DNA of 32,055 nt from Myxococcales bacterium. Lineage in GTDB: Bacteria; Myxococcota_A; Polyangia; Polyangiales; Polyangiaceae. Below the pieces are notes generated by a model. It saw only the letters and a list, made by a program, of their open reading frames with translations, was not told where the DNA came from and searched no databases. The position numbers and the translations under genes are program-made. Shown here in pieces: positions 14,768 through 25,396 of the stretch (positions within the stretch are counted from its first letter, which is position 1; each line of letters begins with the position of its first letter). Location of the stretch: positions 1 through 32,055 of the forward strand of contig JANXMC010000519.1 in NCBI GenBank assembly GCA_025354825.1, given 5' to 3'.

Positions 14768-15757
14768 ATGCAGCACGGGGCGGCCCGATCCGTGCGAACG
14801 CGTTTTGGTGTGAGCCTACGCATCCACCACGAACCGCTCGTCGAGCTCGGTCGAGCTCTGCTACGCCAAGGCTACAGCTTCATCACGCCGACGCCTGAAA
14901 CCCATCGCCGCGCCAACCGAAACGCCGAGGCGCGAGGCCGCGCGCGGGGGTCGTCGCTCCGAGATGTCTTTGGGTGGAATCGCCCCTTCGACCAGGGCGC
15001 ATTGCCGAGCCCCTTGCTGTCTCTGCTGCGCGACGCAAATGCGCTCGATGTCCGTCAAGATGACCTGCGATCACGCGTTCGGTTCTCGACGCTCGGGGGT
15101 CGAGCCTTCGCCCACGGGAGCTATCCGACCGTTGAGGACGACGCTGTCTTCTTCGGTCCGGACACGTATCGATTTTGCTCTCTCATCACGAGCAACATGG
15201 TCCCGTGCGCGCGCGTCGCCGACATCGGATGCGGCTCGGGCGCAGGCGGAATCGTCGCATCGCGCTTTGCCCGAGACGTGGTGCTTTCGGACATCAATGA
15301 CAGCGCGCTCGCCCTCGCGCGGGTGAATGCAGCAATCGCTGGGCTCGAGCGCGTGGAGGCCGTGCGCAGCGACGTCCTCGCATCGGTCGATGGATCGTTC
15401 GACTGCATCGTCGCCAATCCGCCCTACCTCGCCGATGCCGCCGCGCGCGCGTACCGCCATGGGGGAGACGACCTTGGGTCGGAGCTTTCGTTGCGAATCG
15501 CGCGCGAATCGCTCGACCGCCTCGCTCCCGGAGGGCGGCTCATTCTGTACACAGGCGCCGCCATCGTGGACGGCGTCGACGTAATTCAGCGAGGTTTGCT
15601 GCCGCTGCTCACCGAGCGTGGCGCCACGTATACGTATGAGGAGATCGACCCCGACGTATTTGGAGAAGAGCTAGACCTAGCTGCCTATCAAAACGTCGAT
15701 CGGATCGCCGCCGTGGGCCTCGTGGCCGTGATGCCAATGACGTCAGGAGCCCGATGA
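14768..15757 (+). CDS. SAM-dependent methyltransferase with NPPY motif
   Basis: Motif I VADIGCGSGAGGI (about residues 152-164), the acidic SAM-ribose site LSDIND, and IVANPPYLADAAARAY (NPPY) identify a class I methyltransferase of the HemK/RsmC type, which methylates planar sp2 nitrogen (glutamine amide, adenine or guanine amine). The N-terminal 130 residues (SSLRDVFGWNRPFDQGALPS) form a substrate domain, not the usual PrmC helical bundle, so a release-factor role is unlikely. The ATG at 14768 or a GTG at 14810 (VSLRIHHEPL) may be the start. Its last 4 bases overlap the ATP-grasp ATG, so the two are translationally coupled, which suggests small-molecule rather than rRNA or protein methylation. 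Confidence 0.75.
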   Translation: MQHGAARSVRTRFGVSLRIHHEPLVELGRALLRQGYSFITPTPETHRRANRNAEARGRARGSSLRDVFGWNRPFDQGALPSPLLSLLRDANALDVRQDDLRSRVRFSTLGGRAFAHGSYPTVEDDAVFFGPDTYRFCSLITSNMVPCARVADIGCGSGAGGIVASRFARDVVLSDINDSALALARVNAAIAGLERVEAVRSDVLASVDGSFDCIVANPPYLADAAARAYRHGGDDLGSELSLRIARESLDRLAPGGRLILYTGAAIVDGVDVIQRGLLPLLTERGATYTYEEIDPDVFGEELDLAAYQNVDRIAAVGLVAVMPMTSGAR

Positions 15758-17049
15758 AGTTCATTGTTTCGACGCAGGATTACGTGGGATTAGGCTTCGC
15801 CGTGCGCCTTGGTGCCGAAGGGCACGAGGTGATTTTGGCTACGAATCCGTCTCCCGAAGCGCTCTCTCCCCGGAGACGCGAGGCCTACGACCGCGTGGGA
15901 GACGGCCTGGTGGCGAAGGCGACTTTGCGCGATCTGTTGGCGCGGCGCGAGTCGCTGCGCGACGCCTATTGGATTTGGGACTTCAACCACTCTGTCGACG
16001 AGAACGAGCTTCTGCGCGCAGAGGGCTTCAAAGTGTTTGGAGGCGGCGCCCACGCGAACACGATGGAGCACGATCGGGCGAAGTGCCTCGCGCTCGTCGA
16101 AGCGCAAGGGCTCAAAGCGCCCCCGTCGACGCGGTTCGACGACCCGAACGCCGCAATCGCGTTTCTCAACGAGAACCCTTCGATCGCGTACGTGTACAAA
16201 CCGGACGAAGGGGAGAGCTTCGAGACGTTCGTGCCCGAGGCGGAGGAACCTGCGGACGCGAATGAAGAGCTTCGCGTGCATCTCGCGGCGAGCACCCACG
16301 CGGGGGCTTTCATTCTGCAAGAGCGGAAGGAGGGCGTAGAGACGAACGCGGAGGTGTGGTTTCAAAACGGCGAGCCTGTCTTCGCGTTCATGGCGATCGA
16401 GTGCAAGAAGAACTGCGCTCTCGATTTAGGCCACTTCGTAGGGTGCGCCTTCAACTACGCGTTCGTCGTACCGCTCGAATGCCGCGCCGTGCAGGAGGTC
16501 ATGGGCAAGCTTTTCCCCTTCTACCGCGCGATGAAATACACCGGCTTTGGCGACGCGAATTTCATTGCCGCAAGAGACGGGATCTGGTTCCTCGAGAAGT
16601 GCGAACGATTTGGGTACAATTCCCACCCCAATTTGTTCTGGAATCTCTCGCGCCATGGGATGGGAGAGGTGATCGCGAGCCTGGTCGACGGCACGTTCAA
16701 GCCCGATTTCGCCGAAGGTTTCGGGGCGTCGCTTCTCATGTCGACGAAAGAGGGGGCGCCGGGTGGGCACGCCATTCAGTTCCCGCCCAAGCTCGAGAGC
16801 TCGCTCTTCTATTGGGATGTGCTTAAAAGGGACGGCCTGTACCTAACGGCCGGCTACGACGCCGACGGCTACGTACTGCTGGTGAATGCCCACGGATTCA
16901 CGATGGAAACGGCCTGGCAGTCGGTCCTTCAGAAGGCGAGTCAAATTCGCTTCCCCTATCGGCACTACCGCGCTGATGGCGACCAGACCAACTATCCATC
17001 GAGCCCGATTCGCAGGTACGAGGCGCTCAAGGCCATGGGGTATATCTGA
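15754..17049 (+). CDS. PurD-like ATP-grasp ligase
   Basis: The 431-residue protein starts MKFIVSTQDYVGLGFAVRLG (Rossmann-like pre-ATP-grasp domain), then has HDRAKCLALVEAQGLKAP, AYVYKPDEGES (ATP-binding lysine strand), AGAFILQERKEGVETNAEVW (central strand, ligating Glu) and YTGFGDANFIAA with WFLEKCERFGYNSHP (Mg-binding Glu/Asn). This is the layout of phosphoribosylamine-glycine ligase (PurD) relatives, but the RFGDPE signature of true PurD is changed to RFGYNSHPN, and the setting is not purine synthesis. ATP-grasp ligases join a carboxylate to an amine through an acyl phosphate. Start and stop overlap or abut the methyltransferase and oxidase genes. I infer amide-bond formation in a small-molecule pathway; substrates are unknown. 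Confidence 0.75.
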   Translation: MKFIVSTQDYVGLGFAVRLGAEGHEVILATNPSPEALSPRRREAYDRVGDGLVAKATLRDLLARRESLRDAYWIWDFNHSVDENELLRAEGFKVFGGGAHANTMEHDRAKCLALVEAQGLKAPPSTRFDDPNAAIAFLNENPSIAYVYKPDEGESFETFVPEAEEPADANEELRVHLAASTHAGAFILQERKEGVETNAEVWFQNGEPVFAFMAIECKKNCALDLGHFVGCAFNYAFVVPLECRAVQEVMGKLFPFYRAMKYTGFGDANFIAARDGIWFLEKCERFGYNSHPNLFWNLSRHGMGEVIASLVDGTFKPDFAEGFGASLLMSTKEGAPGGHAIQFPPKLESSLFYWDVLKRDGLYLTAGYDADGYVLLVNAHGFTMETAWQSVLQKASQIRFPYRHYRADGDQTNYPSSPIRRYEALKAMGYI

Positions 17050-17092
17050 GCTGCACGGCCCAAAGGGGATCGAGGGCGTTGCCGAGGCGCCA

Positions 17093-18082
17093 ATGTGCAC
17101 AGCGCCCAGCGCGACCGAGACCACCGCCGCATCCCTCCTCGCACAGGCACGCGGCCCGTCGATTGCAACTCACGTCCGCATGAGCGTCACCACTCTCACA
17201 CTCGATAAGCAGCCGCGCCTTCGGCTCGTCTCTTCGCCTACGGCCCTTCAGCGCGATCTCGCAGCGTTCAATCGCTTGCGCCTCGCCCCTTCGATCCCGT
17301 CGCGCGACTGGCGCGACGCCCTCGCGGAAGAGGCGAGGATGCGCTTCGTCGAGGTCGAATTCCTCGAGCGGGAGCGGGCGGTGGTACGCAATGCCGCGGC
17401 TGCGGCGCCGCGCGACGCCGACGCCTTCGTCGCTTGGTTCGAAGAGCTCAAGGCGAATGGGCCTGGCCAGGGTGACCCGCTCTTTCCGTTTCTCGCGACG
17501 ACCGCGAGCCTCGAACAGATGAAATGGTTTCTCCAGCAAGAGGTCGCGGGCGAGGCCGGCTTCGACGACCTCGTCGCGATGACCCAGGTAAAGATGCCTG
17601 CGCAAGCGAAGCTCGAGCTCGCCCATAACTACTGGGATGAAATGGGGCAGGGGAATGCCGGCGGAATGCACGGCCCCATGCTCGGTCGCCTCGCGCAGGA
17701 GCTTGCGCTTCCCGAAGACGACGACGCCATCGTCTGGGAGTCCTTGGCGCTCGGCAATCTCTTGGTAGGGCTCGCGACCCACCGCGCCTATGCGTACCAT
17801 TCCATTGGGGCCCTGGGCGCCATCGAGCTAACGGCGCCCGGGCGCGCGGAGCAGGTGAATGCCGCACTAAAGCGCCTCGGGGTGCGCGGGGAGGCGCGTC
17901 GCTACTTCGCACTTCACGCGACGCTCGACGTGAAACATTCGGTCGCGTGGAATCGCGATGTGCTCCACCCTATTGTCGCGGAGCGGCCCGAGGCAGCCTC
18001 CGCGATCGCGGAGGGGGCGCTGATGCGACTGCGCGCGGGGGCGCGTTGCTTCGAACGTTACCGAGCCCACTTCGGCATTTGA
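17093..18082 (+). CDS. Heme-oxygenase-like diiron oxidase (iron-containing redox enzyme family)
   Basis: Starting at ATG 17093 (GAGG just upstream; an alternative ATG is at 17180) the product has 329 residues. The all-helical domain carries the ligands of the HDO family: E150/E154 in LQQEVAGEAGFDD, E183 and H193 in NYWDEMGQGNAGGMHGPM, and D279/H282 in HATLDVKHSVAWNRDVLHPI. The NxxDExGxGxxxxMH pattern is the family hallmark. Known members (SznF, UndA, BesC) use O2 at a transient diiron centre to N-hydroxylate, cleave or desaturate amino acids and fatty acids. It starts 44 bases after the ATP-grasp stop. I infer an oxidative step on the substrate built by the neighbouring enzymes. Confidence 0.8.
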   Translation: MCTAPSATETTAASLLAQARGPSIATHVRMSVTTLTLDKQPRLRLVSSPTALQRDLAAFNRLRLAPSIPSRDWRDALAEEARMRFVEVEFLERERAVVRNAAAAAPRDADAFVAWFEELKANGPGQGDPLFPFLATTASLEQMKWFLQQEVAGEAGFDDLVAMTQVKMPAQAKLELAHNYWDEMGQGNAGGMHGPMLGRLAQELALPEDDDAIVWESLALGNLLVGLATHRAYAYHSIGALGAIELTAPGRAEQVNAALKRLGVRGEARRYFALHATLDVKHSVAWNRDVLHPIVAERPEAASAIAEGALMRLRAGARCFERYRAHFGI

Positions 18083-18120
18083 AGAGGACGCGGGCGCTAG
18101 TGGATTCCAGCAAAATAATT

Positions 18121-18136
18121 GGGCACGAAGCCTGCT
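18121..18136 (+). promoter_or_regulatory. Possible sigma-54 promoter before the guanidino hydrolase gene
   Basis: GGGCACGAAGCCTGCT matches the sigma-54 consensus at GGCACG and TGCT with correct spacing (mismatches only at the first T and one T of the -12 box). Transcription would start near 18147, only about 4 bases before the ATG at 18151, which would make the mRNA nearly leaderless. A sigma-70-like TTGGGC/CATAAT pair overlaps. No ribosome site precedes the ATG, which fits a leaderless start, but the match may be chance. Confidence 0.35.
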
Positions 18137-18150
18137 TGTCATAATCCTCA

Positions 18151-19035
18151 ATGGAATCGGAGAACCTTGCTCTCTTCGTAAGTCAGGTGGTCTGCGTGGG
18201 CGACCACGCCGCGACCGTAGACTGCGCCTACCAAGTTGCGTGGTCGATCAATCCGCACATGCGCGTGGGCTCGGTGGACGTTCATCGCGCGCAGCGGCAG
18301 CACGAGAGGTTCACGGCCTCACTCCGGCGGCTTGGAGCAGAGGTTACGGAGCTCCCCTTCGTGCACGGCGCCTTCGATTCTGTATTCGCGAAGGACAATG
18401 CGCTCTTGGTGACGCAGCAAGGCCGCCGCCGCGCGCTCCTTGCGCGGCCACGGTGCGGAGAGCGCGCATCGGAGCAGGCGCCGCGCGCCCACGCCTTGGA
18501 GCGTGCGGGGTTCGATGTGTCCATCGCGCACGGTGAGCCGATAGAGGGGGGCGACATCGTGATGCTCCCAAACGGCGGAGGCGCGCTACTGGGGTATGGC
18601 TTTCGCTCGTCACGCGGCGCCGCGGCGGGTCTCGCGAGCTTTCTCGGTGCAGACGTCTTGCCGCTGAAGCTTCGTGATCCGGCGCTGTACCATCTCGACA
18701 CCGCCCTCTTCGCACTCAACGATGGAACCCTCTTGGTATGTCCCGAGGCGTTCACGAACGAGGGGTTGCGCGCTCTCGAAGCGCACCCCGCCGTTCGCGA
18801 TATCGCGTATGTGCCGCGCGAAGAAGCGCTCCGATTCGGCGTGAATCTCGTCCAAATCGGCGCGACGCTCCTCGTGGGCGGTCCGGCGCCGACCGTGGCC
18901 TACGCGGCGCGCGCACGGGGGCTTCGTTTGGAGATCACACCGCTTGACGAGTTTCAGCTCGCCGGGGGGAGCGCCGCGTGCCTCGTGAGCCATGTGCATG
19001 CGCTCGACGCTGCCACGACGGCGGCCGCCGCCTAG
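18151..19035 (+). CDS. Pentein-fold guanidino hydrolase / amidinotransferase-like enzyme
   Basis: The 294-residue protein shows the whole dimethylargininase/amidinotransferase signature: GAFDSVFAKDNALL (D76), EGGDIVMLPNGG (E132, D135), the catalytic YHLDTALFAL (H181) and LAGGSAACLVSHVH with nucleophile C277 near the C-terminus. Penteins attack the guanidino carbon of arginine-like substrates through a Cys-thiouronium, releasing ammonia or an alkylamine, or passing the amidino group to an acceptor. Length (about 250-300) fits DDAH or the single-domain pentein group rather than the 400-residue arginine deiminase. It ends the four-gene block 14768-19035. The arginine or methylarginine substrate is inferred from family only. 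Confidence 0.8.
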   Translation: MESENLALFVSQVVCVGDHAATVDCAYQVAWSINPHMRVGSVDVHRAQRQHERFTASLRRLGAEVTELPFVHGAFDSVFAKDNALLVTQQGRRRALLARPRCGERASEQAPRAHALERAGFDVSIAHGEPIEGGDIVMLPNGGGALLGYGFRSSRGAAAGLASFLGADVLPLKLRDPALYHLDTALFALNDGTLLVCPEAFTNEGLRALEAHPAVRDIAYVPREEALRFGVNLVQIGATLLVGGPAPTVAYAARARGLRLEITPLDEFQLAGGSAACLVSHVHALDAATTAAAA

Positions 19036-22170: not shown

Positions 22171-22377
22171 ATGAGGCCTACTTTTCACATCGGTACCGCG
22201 GGTTGGGCGGTTCCTCGCGAGCACAGCGGCGCGTTCCCAAGGGACGGCTCGGGGCTCGCGCGTTACGCGGCTGTATTGCGTGCCGCGGAAATCAACACGA
22301 CCTTCTACCGCTTTCCAAGGTGTCCTCGGTCGGTAAAAACCGTTCGGCGCTCTAGAAACGGTCAGCCCAGCGCGTAG
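22171..22377 (+). pseudogene. DUF72 family protein, N-terminal remnant
   Basis: From ATG 22171 the frame reads HIGTAGWAVPREHSGAFPRD, GSGLARYAAVLRAAEINTTF, then YRFPR. This is the start of a DUF72 (YecE-like) TIM-barrel protein, normally 240-290 residues. At about 22318 homology stops and only 20 unrelated codons remain before the stop, right beside the tail of the FAD reductase. DUF72 proteins have unknown function. The rest of the barrel is missing from the window. Confidence 0.7.
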
Positions 22378-23450
22378 CCCAGCGTGGCGTCGAACAGCTT
22401 TGGGAAGCGCGCGAGGGTGTGAACGGCGGCGCGCCGCAGCCGGGGGGCACGCGCAATGGCGAGTACCGTGGTCGCGAGGCGCGCGTATTTGCCATACACG
22501 CGGGCGTAGGCGCGCTCGTAGGGGGCGAGGGCGAGCTCGTTCGCCCCTTGCGCGATGGCGACGGGCAAGAGATCGCCAAGCGCGACGGCGCAGGCGAACG
22601 CGAGGGAGAGCCCTTCGCCCGTAATCGCGTCGACGTAGCCGGCCGCGTCGCCGAGGAGAACGAAGCGGTCGCGCACGCGGGCTGTCGCCCCACGCGCGAG
22701 TGGGCCGGCGCCGCGCGGAGCCGAGTCGGTCGGGGCGTCGCCGAGGCGCGCGTCGAGGCGCGGGAAACGCTTGCGGAAGGCCGTGATCGTGACGTCGCGC
22801 TGCGCGCCGTCCTCCCACAAGAAAGCGACTCCGACGCGCCCTGCACCTGCCGGCGTGACGTACGCCTCCACCCCTTTCGACCAATGGACCTCGACACTGC
22901 GGCTCCACGGCGCGAGGGCGAAGTGCTGGCGAAGGCCGAACCGCTTGCGCGCGAGCGGTGGCCCGTCGAGCCCCTCTTGATGGCGGCGTGGGGACGCGAG
23001 ACCGTCGGCGGCGACGAGCACACGTGCTGTCACGGGGCCGTGGTCCGTTGCAAGCGCGACGTGGTCTGCGGCGTGGGTGTGGTGGCGAACCGCCACGTCG
23101 TGGTGCACCAATGCGCCGCTCTCGCGTGCGCACGCCTCGAGCGCCGCCGTAAGGGCAATTCGGCGAATGCCAAGTCCGCCGCCGCCAGGAAGCTTTCCCG
23201 TTACGTGGGAGCCGTCCTCTTGAACGTATTCGATCGATTCGATAGGCGCTGTGTCGCTCATGGAGAGATGTCGACGCGCGCCTAACGTCTCGAGCGCGTG
23301 GAGACCGAAGGGCATGAGACCTTCGCCGCACGCTTTGTCCGGCGCGCCGCTCTTTTTTTCGAAGACGACGACCTCCAGCCCCTTTTTTGCAGCCGCCGCG
23401 GCGAGGGCGAGGCCTGCGGGTCCACCCCCGACGATGGCGACGTCGATCAC
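22362..23450 (-). CDS. FAD-dependent oxidoreductase, geranylgeranyl-reductase-like
   Basis: The 362-residue flavoprotein starts DVAIVGGGPAGLALAAAAAK (GxGxxG dinucleotide site) with FEKKSGAPDKACGEGLMPFG, a GGR-family substrate and flavin motif. DGLASPRRHQ and DRFVLLGDAAGYVDAITGEG (GD motif binding FAD ribityl) follow. Such enzymes reduce or hydroxylate lipid and polyketide products. The start overlaps the acyl carrier protein gene by 4 bases, so it is the last gene of the type III PKS operon. I infer tailoring (hydroxylation or double-bond reduction) of the alkyl polyketide; the product cannot be read from sequence. Confidence 0.85.
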   Translation of the reverse strand: MIDVAIVGGGPAGLALAAAAAKKGLEVVVFEKKSGAPDKACGEGLMPFGLHALETLGARRHLSMSDTAPIESIEYVQEDGSHVTGKLPGGGGLGIRRIALTAALEACARESGALVHHDVAVRHHTHAADHVALATDHGPVTARVLVAADGLASPRRHQEGLDGPPLARKRFGLRQHFALAPWSRSVEVHWSKGVEAYVTPAGAGRVGVAFLWEDGAQRDVTITAFRKRFPRLDARLGDAPTDSAPRGAGPLARGATARVRDRFVLLGDAAGYVDAITGEGLSLAFACAVALGDLLPVAIAQGANELALAPYERAYARVYGKYARLATTVLAIARAPRLRRAAVHTLARFPKLFDATLGYALG

Positions 23451-23737
23451 AGTGGCGACGCGCTCGCCCGCATCGCGACGAGGCGAGCGAGATCGCTCAC
23501 TGTGAGGGCTGCGTCTTCATCTGTGAGAATGACGCGAAAGTGATCTTCGAGGCCAACGGCGAGCGTCGTGAGGGCCATGGAGTCGAGCGCGAGATCGCCC
23601 ATGAGCTCTTCGCGGCCCGTGATTTCTCGATCGATCCCGAGGTCGCGCGCCAGGATGATTCGGATCTCGCTCACCGCCTCGCGTTCGAGATCGGCAACCG
23701 ATGTACGTGCAATCGATGCGTGAGAGCCATCAGGCAT
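23447..23737 (-). CDS. Acyl carrier protein in a type III PKS operon
   Basis: The 96-residue protein has the carrier fold, helix I VADLEREAVSEIRIILARDL, and the phosphopantetheine site GDLALDSMALTTLA with Ser53 (LDSM). The ATG at 23737 has GGAG 6 bases before it and is preferred over an upstream Met at 23794. It overlaps the methyltransferase-like gene by 8 bases upstream and the FAD reductase by 4 bases downstream. Type III PKSs normally use CoA starters, so a dedicated carrier protein next to one suggests that the starter acyl chain is delivered from, or stored on, an ACP. Confidence 0.85.
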   Translation of the reverse strand: MPDGSHASIARTSVADLEREAVSEIRIILARDLGIDREITGREELMGDLALDSMALTTLAVGLEDHFRVILTDEDAALTVSDLARLVAMRASASPL

Positions 23738-24302
23738 GGGGTGCTCCTGGGATAAAGCGGGGGCGCCCTTCGAAGGCGCGTTCGTAGGCGGCACCTAGGG
23801 CAGCTTCCTCGGCGCGAATGCGAACCGTCAAAAGTGCCGCGTTGGCCACGGAAAAGACGACGGCCGTGAGCCACGCGCCGTGAATCAGCGGGACGGCGAG
23901 AAGCTCGACGACGACAGCGAGGTAGTTGGGGTGGCGGAGAAATCGGTACGGCCCCGCAGTGACCGGGCTGTCGCCAGGAACGAAGATCACACGCGTATTC
24001 CAGCGCGGGCCGAGGGTTGAAATGGCCCAGTAGCGAAGGGCTTGGGAGCCCAGCGCGAGCACCAACGCGACGACGCCGAACGCGCCTGGAAACGGGCGTT
24101 TCAGGAGGACTACCTCGGCGCCGCAGGCGACGAAGAAGAGCGAGTGGAGCACAACCATCACGCGGTAGTGCCCCGTTCCAACCTCGACGCCGCCGCGGGA
24201 TAGCGCGAAGGCGGCGTTCCGTTTCGAGATGCCGAGCTCGACGACTCGCTCGATCGCCAGCAGGCCAAGAAAAGCCAAATAGAGCGCGTACGTGCTTACC
24301 AT
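23730..24302 (-). CDS. Isoprenylcysteine carboxyl-methyltransferase-like membrane protein
   Basis: The 190-residue protein has 4-5 transmembrane helices (YALYLAFLGLLAIERVVELG, VMVVLHSLFFVACGAEVVLL, GVVALVLALGSQALRYWAIS, LAVVVELLAVPLIHGAWLTA). The SAM-binding motif GPYRFLRHPNYLAVVVELLA with the RHPxY core and the trailing Glu pair of ICMT/PEMT-like enzymes are present. These methylate lipophilic carboxyl or phenol groups at the membrane. It overlaps the PKS stop by 7 bases. ICMT-like genes frequently accompany alkylresorcinol/alkylpyrone type III PKSs, where O-methylation of the ring hydroxyl is the expected role. Confidence 0.85.
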   Translation of the reverse strand: MVSTYALYLAFLGLLAIERVVELGISKRNAAFALSRGGVEVGTGHYRVMVVLHSLFFVACGAEVVLLKRPFPGAFGVVALVLALGSQALRYWAISTLGPRWNTRVIFVPGDSPVTAGPYRFLRHPNYLAVVVELLAVPLIHGAWLTAVVFSVANAALLTVRIRAEEAALGAAYERAFEGRPRFIPGAPHA

Positions 24303-25396
24303 CGGAGGAGAACCAGCTCGGAGCAGAAGCCCGGCCCCATCGCCGCCAAAAGGCCGTAATCACCGGTTTTCGCTACGCGTGAATCGAGCAGCTCGCGCAG
24401 TACGAAGAGCACCGATGCGGACGAGAGATTGCCCGTCTCCTCGAGGGCCCGCCACGAGCCGGCGAGCGCTTTGGCAGGAAGATCGAGCGACTTCTCGAAC
24501 GCCTCGAGCACCTTCGGCCCGCCGGTGTGGACGACCCAATGGGCGATGTCTTTGCGCCCAATGCCGTGCTTCGCGAGAAAGGCGTCGACGTTCTCGGGAA
24601 TGTGCTTTTGAACAATGGCGGGAACGTCAGGCGAGAGAACGAGCTTGAAGCCCGTGTCGACGACGTCCCACCCCATCACGCGTTCGGAGTCGGGATACAA
24701 AACCGATTGCGTCGCGACGACTTGCGGGGCGAGGCCCGCCGGGGCTGCGTTGGGCTTATCGAGGCGTGCGTCGCGCCGCGCGGCGCCTTCGAGAACGACG
24801 GCCGCGGCGCCGTCGCCGAAGAGTCCCGAGGCGATGATGTTGGGGATTGAGAGGTCGTCCTGTTGAAGTGTGAGGGAGCAGAGCTCGACGGCGAGCAATA
24901 CACAAATATCGTTCGGGAACGCTCGCAAGTAGTCGCTCGCGCGGGCCGTGCCGGCTGCGCCCGCCACGCAGCCGAGGCCGAACAGAGGCGTCCGTTTCAC
25001 GTCGGGGCGCATCCCCATGCGGTTCGCGAGGCGAGCTTCGATGCTCGGCGTGGAGATGCCCGTGACGGTCGTGAAAAAGATGTGATCCACGTCGCGGACC
25101 GTGAGATTCGCGGCGTCGAGGGCGCGGCGCACGGCCTTTTCGCCGACGTCGAGGGCTACGCGGATCCAGACGTCGTTGCGCTTTCCGAAGGAATCGAGGT
25201 CGCGCATCGCATCCGGCGGAACTGCCAAATAGCGGCCGGAGACTTTCACCGAGCGGTGGAGCTGCGCCAGCCGGTCGGGGTTGTAGTGCTTCTTGGCCCA
25301 CAGGCTTTTTAGTGAGGCCGCGATGGTCTCTTGGTCGACGTGGTGTTCGGGAAGCGCGCACCCGACGGACACGATCGAAGGAAGATGCGCCGTCAT
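24296..25396 (-). CDS. Type III polyketide synthase (chalcone/alkylresorcinol synthase family)
   Basis: The 366-residue thiolase-fold enzyme carries the full Cys-His-Asn triad: GLGCVAGAAG (C143), WVVHTGGPKVLE (H290) and GNLSSASV (N323). PLFGLGCVAGAAGTARASDY and MGPGFCSELVLLRW are family motifs. It condenses an acyl starter with malonyl units and cyclises to a resorcinol or pyrone. The ATG at 25396 has GAGG upstream. It is first in the operon PKS-ICMT-ACP-FAD reductase (25396 to 22362, all junctions overlapping). The long, lipid-like tailoring set suggests an alkyl starter, not an aromatic one. Confidence 0.92.
   Translation of the reverse strand: MTAHLPSIVSVGCALPEHHVDQETIAASLKSLWAKKHYNPDRLAQLHRSVKVSGRYLAVPPDAMRDLDSFGKRNDVWIRVALDVGEKAVRRALDAANLTVRDVDHIFFTTVTGISTPSIEARLANRMGMRPDVKRTPLFGLGCVAGAAGTARASDYLRAFPNDICVLLAVELCSLTLQQDDLSIPNIIASGLFGDGAAAVVLEGAARRDARLDKPNAAPAGLAPQVVATQSVLYPDSERVMGWDVVDTGFKLVLSPDVPAIVQKHIPENVDAFLAKHGIGRKDIAHWVVHTGGPKVLEAFEKSLDLPAKALAGSWRALEETGNLSSASVLFVLRELLDSRVAKTGDYGLLAAMGPGFCSELVLLRW

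Follow-up and report, generated by a model that had tools for sequence, protein, structure and literature searches.

Described systems related to the gene block

A stretch of 32,055 nucleotides from a Myxococcales bacterium (Polyangiaceae; GenBank assembly GCA_025354825.1, contig JANXMC010000519.1, positions 1 to 32,055 of the forward strand, hereafter termed the window) carries a block of four genes for an NPPY-type methyltransferase (MT), an ATP-grasp ligase, a heme-oxygenase-like diiron oxygenase (HDO) and a pentein. HDOs constitute a large and mostly uncharacterized superfamily, and the closest solved relative of the HDO in the window, with the same ligand residues, belongs to the HrmI/BelK group of hormaomycin and belactosin biosynthesis. 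HrmI converts lysine to a nitro compound, and in the HrmI/BelK pathways lysine becomes nitro-norleucine within large peptide clusters; we know of no methyltransferase, pentein or cyanophycin genes linked to them. The SznE/SznF pair of streptozotocin biosynthesis also joins a methyltransferase to an HDO acting on arginine, but SznF differs in its 3H/4C site and in its cupin domain, which is missing from the HDO described here, and it ranks only third among the folds closest to that HDO.

At the level of enzyme classes only, the mangotoxin cluster mboABCDEF of Pseudomonas syringae is likewise a compact combination of an HDO, ATP-grasp ligases and an arginine-acting pentein (PMC13185094). In the available part of that report, MboA works on a tripeptide to give an alkyne with the dedicated reductase MboB, two ATP-grasp enzymes are present and no methyltransferase is described, while the window has an HDO of the HrmI-type clade and a PurD-like ligase. 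An original prediction, made from the letters of this DNA alone, knew of no described cluster with the exact set, and this needs to be qualified by mangotoxin biosynthesis, where an HDO, two ATP-grasp ligases and an arginine deiminase come together, although the product is an alkyne and not an N-oxide. Among solved structures the pentein is nearest to ArgZ/AgrE, cyanobacterial enzymes of arginine degradation (PMC8262935) that are tied to arginine and cyanophycin turnover; the pentein here differs in having no ornithine cyclodeaminase domain and in falling short of the family cut-offs. GenN, which methylates a small molecule, and AerE, which methylates an asparagine side chain, resemble the MT in fold over its whole length, at about 20% identity and from other clusters with other substrates. 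Lastly, cyanophycin is a well-studied nitrogen store, a polymer in which arginine is kept, and its gene clusters (cphA, cphB, iaaA) have the MT and HDO inside or beside them in Caulobacteraceae and some Sphingomonadales, though the window genome is without cphA.

The block comprises four genes on one strand, located with the spacing that the original prediction had given:

14768..15757, + strand: methyltransferase gene, 329 aa
15754..17049, + strand: ATP-grasp gene, 431 aa, overlapping the methyltransferase gene by 4 bases
17093..18082, + strand: HDO gene, 329 aa, 43 bases after the ATP-grasp gene
18151..19035, + strand: pentein gene, 294 aa, 68 bases after the HDO gene

Recurrence of the module

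The block is a real module, and its chance assembly in this strain was rejected on the recurrence of the set in other loci across several phyla and on the co-occurrence of its genes in genomes. An alignment of the HDO scanned over 84,980 species genomes recovered 464 relatives, of which the best 80 were retained with flanks of up to 10 kb, gene positions being taken from homology-anchored frames. These 80 loci were sorted into those with the MT (26), with the pentein (11, among them a weak match in locus L113), with MT and ATP-grasp (10), with MT and pentein (3), with all four genes (2) and with none of the partners (28); at least one partner is present in 51 of the 80. Both loci with the complete set, L047 and L056, are from myxobacterial metagenome-assembled genomes. 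Gene order varies: L056 runs MT (+), pentein (-), HDO (+) and ATP-grasp (-), as against MT, ATP-grasp, HDO and pentein, all on the + strand, in the window. Wherever the pentein match was strong (15/15 such loci among the 80), it lay no more than some 2 kb from the HDO. In a maximum-likelihood phylogeny of 86 HDOs, supported branches force at least five changes of the ATP-grasp label and at least four each for the pentein and for cyanophycin genes, and the associations therefore arose more than once or were repeatedly lost.

Co-occurrence at the genome level was assessed in 179 Polyangiales genomes with thresholds of E<1e-60 for the HDO and E<1e-70 for the methyltransferase. The MT was present in 16 of 21 HDO-positive genomes and in none of the 158 HDO-negative ones (Fisher p 8e-19), and the pentein in 8 of 21 against 0 of 158, one weaker pentein (44% identity) being seen in an HDO-negative genome. 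In several genomes (e.g. G181, G125 and G096) the MT lies at a distance from the HDO or on a different contig, and co-occurrence thus exceeds co-inheritance of a single locus. In neither of the bacterial groups in which both genes were sought did an HDO-less genome yield a strong MT homologue. Methyltransferase and HDO form the core of the module, a pair that is widespread in Alphaproteobacteria and tied to cyanophycin genes there, all of which the original prediction had missed.

The diiron oxygenase resembles N-oxygenases

The assignment of the third gene product to the HDOs holds both by profile (PF14518, E=2.1e-40) and by the fold of its AlphaFold model, and the predicted pattern NxxDExGxGxxxxMH is fitted by NYWDEMGQGNAGGMH. 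PF14518 was the only domain found in the 329 aa, and the model (pLDDT 84) ends with the HDO helices, with no C-terminal cupin. The profile of the clade matched HrmI at 1e-43, as against 0.0025 for SznF. The model superposes on the HrmI structure 9nh9 with Z 32.8 and a root-mean-square deviation of 2.7 over 297 residues at about 27% identity, followed by RohS (Z 26.4), SznF (22.9) and FlcD (22, tied with SznF), with BesC, PolF and UndA behind. The three nearest characterized families by fold, HrmI, RohS and SznF, are all N-oxygenases. The analogy to SznF that had been proposed thus comes only second to that with HrmI and RohS, and membership in an SznF-type N-nitrosourea pathway was rejected because the cupin domain is missing, HrmI and RohS are closer and the SznF match is far weaker. 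DtpC, the desiccation-protective HDO of Acinetobacter, gave no lead, its operon partner (katE) being different.

Residues 1-41 of the model have pLDDT below 50 and homologues align from about residue 46, for which reason the start is uncertain; the in-frame ATG at 17180 fits the homologues better and may be the true start. The metal ligands, individually assigned by alignment with HrmI, are E150, E183, H193, H275, D279 and H282, each conserved in 85-86 of 86 homologues. The clade is both widespread (464 relatives) and complete in its ligands. They lie in two segments:

17627..17671, + strand: metal-ligand motif NYWDEMG...MH with E183 and H193, invariant in 86/86 clade members
17915..17938, + strand: core helix 3 with ligands H275, D279 and H282, kept in 85, 86 and 86 of 86

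Residues R231, E245 and R251 are likewise kept throughout the clade (85-86 of 86) and in HrmI, a pattern compatible with anchoring of an alpha-amino acid. By analogy with these relatives, oxidation at nitrogen rather than carbon appears the likelier option. Two Polyangiales HDO paralogues (L045:8806-9756 and L043:8763-9926) differ at some metal-ligand positions in the alignment, which suggests decay or another role.

The partner enzymes

Motifs of the three partner enzymes are located as follows:

15416..15427, + strand: methyltransferase NPPY catalytic motif, at least 90% of 61 homologues keeping N217-P218-P219
16591..16617, + strand: ATP-grasp C-terminal metal motif LEKCERFGY, Cys283 in place of Asn, aligned to PurD 2ip4 and homologues
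18376..18396, + strand: pentein DSVFAKD with guanidine-pocket Asp82, KD in 22/22 linked penteins
18544..18555, + strand: pentein EGGD, Glu132 being the partner of the catalytic His, in 22/22
18688..18699, + strand: pentein YHLD with His181 and the second guanidine Asp183, in 22/22
18961..18981, + strand: pentein AGGSAAC with the nucleophile Cys277, Cys in 22/22

The methyltransferase (PF05175, 2.5e-15) has a PrmC-like Rossmann domain with an additional N-terminal domain, and its NPPY occupies residues 217-220 as predicted. Its AlphaFold model (pLDDT 89) aligns over the full length, N-terminal domain included, with GenN (Z 25.4) and AerE (Z 25.3), both ranking ahead of PrmC and HEMK2/N6AMT1. 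From the motif and the modeled N-terminal domain together, it is assigned to the class of NPPY-type small-molecule or side-chain N-methyltransferases; identity with the release-factor glutamine methyltransferase PrmC was rejected at 67 bits to TIGR03534 (cut-off 199). A divergent second MT copy exists in the same genome (G000:C800:1806-2393, locus L002, about 1060-1647, - strand), where NTCGA apparently replaces NPPY and an acidic low-complexity insert follows, possibly marking a repurposed or dead paralogue.

The second enzyme belongs to the ATP-grasp superfamily, its family profile matching PurD structures at 8e-32, and shares 24-28% identity with its counterparts in other HDO loci. K149, N269 and E281 of the predicted Lys/Glu/Asn set are kept, but the metal-binding Asn that canonically follows the Glu, in the PurD motif LExN-RFG, is Cys283 in the window and Thr in relatives. 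The protein is a putative PurD-like ligase with an atypical metal site; PurD (GAR synthetase) identity itself was rejected on the loss of this E-x-N Asn and on a TIGR00877 score (9.9e-9, 34.5 bits) far below the purD cut-off of 288.

The pentein call likewise stands under profile search, with NF045659 at 1e-34 (119.8 bits, cut-off 300) and NF052232 at 3e-28 (98.7 bits, cut-off 450), scores that lie far below the curated cut-offs, so DDAH and arginine dihydrolase were rejected as equivalogs. All its predicted motifs (D76SVF, E132GGD, H181LD and GGSAAC277) are present, and the guanidino-modifying signature of D82, E132, H181, D183 and C277 is complete and invariant in 22 linked penteins. Profiles against structures place ArgZ/AgrE nearest (5e-38), then DDAH, and the pocket is Lys-Asp here, Ala-Asn in ArgZ and Glu-Asp in human DDAH. 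The protein is classed in the guanidino-modifying superfamily, in an ArgZ/DDAH-like subfamily with an FxKD motif.

Linkage to cyanophycin genes

The most surprising feature of the module is its tie to cyanophycin. In 12 of the 80 loci, genes for cyanophycin synthetase, cyanophycinase and beta-aspartyl peptidase adjoin the MT, the HDO or both; the genera concerned are Brevundimonas, Caulobacter, Phenylobacterium, Peiella, Novosphingobium and Sphingopyxis. Beyond these 12, locus L142 has the MT next to cphA with the HDO elsewhere, and in Sphingobium chlorophenolicum (L137:7528-8977) cphB/iaaA fragments directly precede an intact MT gene as the remains of a decayed cyanophycin locus. Of 179 Caulobacteraceae genomes, 55 have the HDO, 28 the MT and 16 cphA; all 16 cphA-positive genomes have the HDO and 15 of them the MT, and all 28 MT-positive genomes have the HDO. 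In 11 of these genomes no more than about 2.2 kb separates the MT from cphA, and in 4 of the 11 the HDO is far away. Such a nested pattern, HDO over MT over CphA, would fit an order of HDO, then methyltransferase, then ligase. The association is weak in Sphingomonadaceae, with the MT in 3 of 6 cphA genomes against 20 of 174 (p 0.03); in one of the cphA genomes, G543, the MT lies 36 bases before cphA. ATP-grasp and cphA occur together in no HDO locus of the tree set, which would fit one ligase substituting for the other, though too few loci are involved to judge. In Brevundimonas, genes for manganese catalase and DUF892 (L100:4459-5364 and L076:5419-5937) recur beside cphB-cphA-HDO-MT.

Proposed pathway and alternatives

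What an HrmI-type HDO, an NPPY N-methyltransferase, a full-pocket pentein, ATP-grasp ligases and cyanophycin enzymes have in common is a basic, arginine-type amino acid. The link to arginine or guanidine that had been proposed for the block is judged likely, with the HDO most like N-oxygenases, and the original interpretation as a whole is partly supported. We give about even chances to the four genes being a small biosynthetic module that N-oxygenates, N-methylates and ligates an arginine-family amino acid, be it arginine or one like ornithine, citrulline or lysine. The HDO would bind the free basic amino acid and oxygenate a side-chain nitrogen with O2 at the diiron site, as HrmI does on the lysine epsilon-amine, after which the NPPY methyltransferase would methylate a side-chain nitrogen of guanidino, ureido or amide type. 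The PurD-like ATP-grasp would then activate a carboxylate with ATP and link it to the modified amino acid by a peptide or amide bond, a role that cyanophycin synthetase may take in Caulobacteraceae and some Sphingomonadales, and the pentein would remove or hydrolyze a guanidine (or N-oxidized) group through Cys277. A more specific version, which we hold only tentatively, is that HDO and MT make an N-oxidized, N-methylated arginine-type amino acid that CphA polymerizes in Caulobacteraceae (or that derives from cyanophycin there) and that in myxobacteria is coupled to a further amino acid by the PurD-like ligase. If true, it would mean that cyanophycin can be chemically modified or that nitrogen storage has a natural-product branch so far hidden. 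The tie provides a concrete, testable hypothesis for the substrate, namely arginine or Asp-Arg. It also suggests that an undescribed oxidative pathway includes or modifies the cyanophycin of Brevundimonas, Caulobacter and Novosphingobium.

Several points weigh against this proposal of N-oxygenation, N-methylation and ligation. HDOs with near-identical ligand sets carry out different chemistry, BesC fragmenting lysine and MboA making an alkyne on a peptide arginine, and for every member of the module we infer the substrate, step order, N-oxidation and product. Most HDO loci lack the pentein and most lack the ATP-grasp, with 28 of the 80 HDOs having no partner nearby, and the ligase activity of the window ATP-grasp stays putative given its divergence and lost Asn. 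The Fisher tests ignore phylogeny, and non-independence of the genomes inflates their values and overstates the evidence. In Polyangiales cphA shows no tie to the HDO (4/21 against 34/158, p=1), and a TIGR02068 search of the window genome (G000) found no cphA.

An improbable alternative, about as tentative as the cyanophycin-specific version, is a mangotoxin-like pathway in which the ATP-grasp builds an arginine peptide, the HDO oxidizes a side-chain carbon (desaturation or alkyne formation), the pentein deiminates arginine to citrulline and methylation is tailoring. The KD pocket and HxD motif of the pentein do resemble those of arginine deiminases. The enzyme classes are the same as in mbo, where the HDO MboA, the ATP-grasps MboC/MboD and the arginine deiminase MboE act on Leu-Ala-Arg (PMC13185094), but the HDO here is closest to HrmI, a binder of free lysine, the four-gene block has no MboB-like flavin/2Fe-2S reductase and a single ATP-grasp of PurD type, and pentein and ATP-grasp are missing in most relatives. 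The authors of the same paper count at least 25 HDO/ATP-grasp cluster types, and our module could be one of them since CphA itself contains an ATP-grasp domain.

We regard as somewhat less probable still that the HDO, MT and pentein break down or remodel the arginine of cyanophycin with no natural product at the end. The linkage with cphA/cphB/iaaA and the pentein's proximity to ArgZ/AgrE, arginine-catabolic enzymes of cyanobacteria, speak for such catabolism; an S-adenosylmethionine-dependent methyltransferase is, however, unlikely as a catabolic step, Polyangiales show no cphA association, and a published survey of cyanophycin gene clusters, in its available part, describes them without these genes and mentions neither HDO nor MT (PMC10206079). 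Equally doubtful is the pentein as a resistance or release enzyme that hydrolyzes a reactive N-oxidized (e.g. nitro) amino acid made by HDO and MT. There is a precedent in azomycin, where the HDO RohS, the second-best fold match here, makes the nitro group and NnhA, a member of the guanidino-modifying superfamily that hydrolyzes 2-nitroimidazole, removes it by hydrolysis (PMC11659421). The constant proximity of strong-match penteins to the HDO points the same way. Against it, the pentein has a complete guanidine-binding signature and is closest to arginine enzymes, and NnhA is likened by description only.

Neighboring genes

The block is preceded by a divergent uracil-DNA-glycosylase-like gene, whose likely start is some 165 bases away from the methyltransferase gene, and followed by a lipoprotein-like gene; neither was seen to recur in related loci. 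Some neighbors in those loci found no family match, namely L027:3065-4249 and the MT neighbor L106:11859-12809 in Pfam, and the homologue of the latter, L094:11778-12779, in NCBIfam. In L028 (2796-5164) cytochrome bd oxidase genes directly adjoin the HDO-methyltransferase pair. Elsewhere in the window, 22362-25396 (- strand) is a compact type III polyketide cluster in which a DpgA-like enzyme of the chalcone-synthase family stands beside genes for an isoprenylcysteine-methyltransferase-like membrane protein and a geranylgeranyl-reductase-like flavoprotein.

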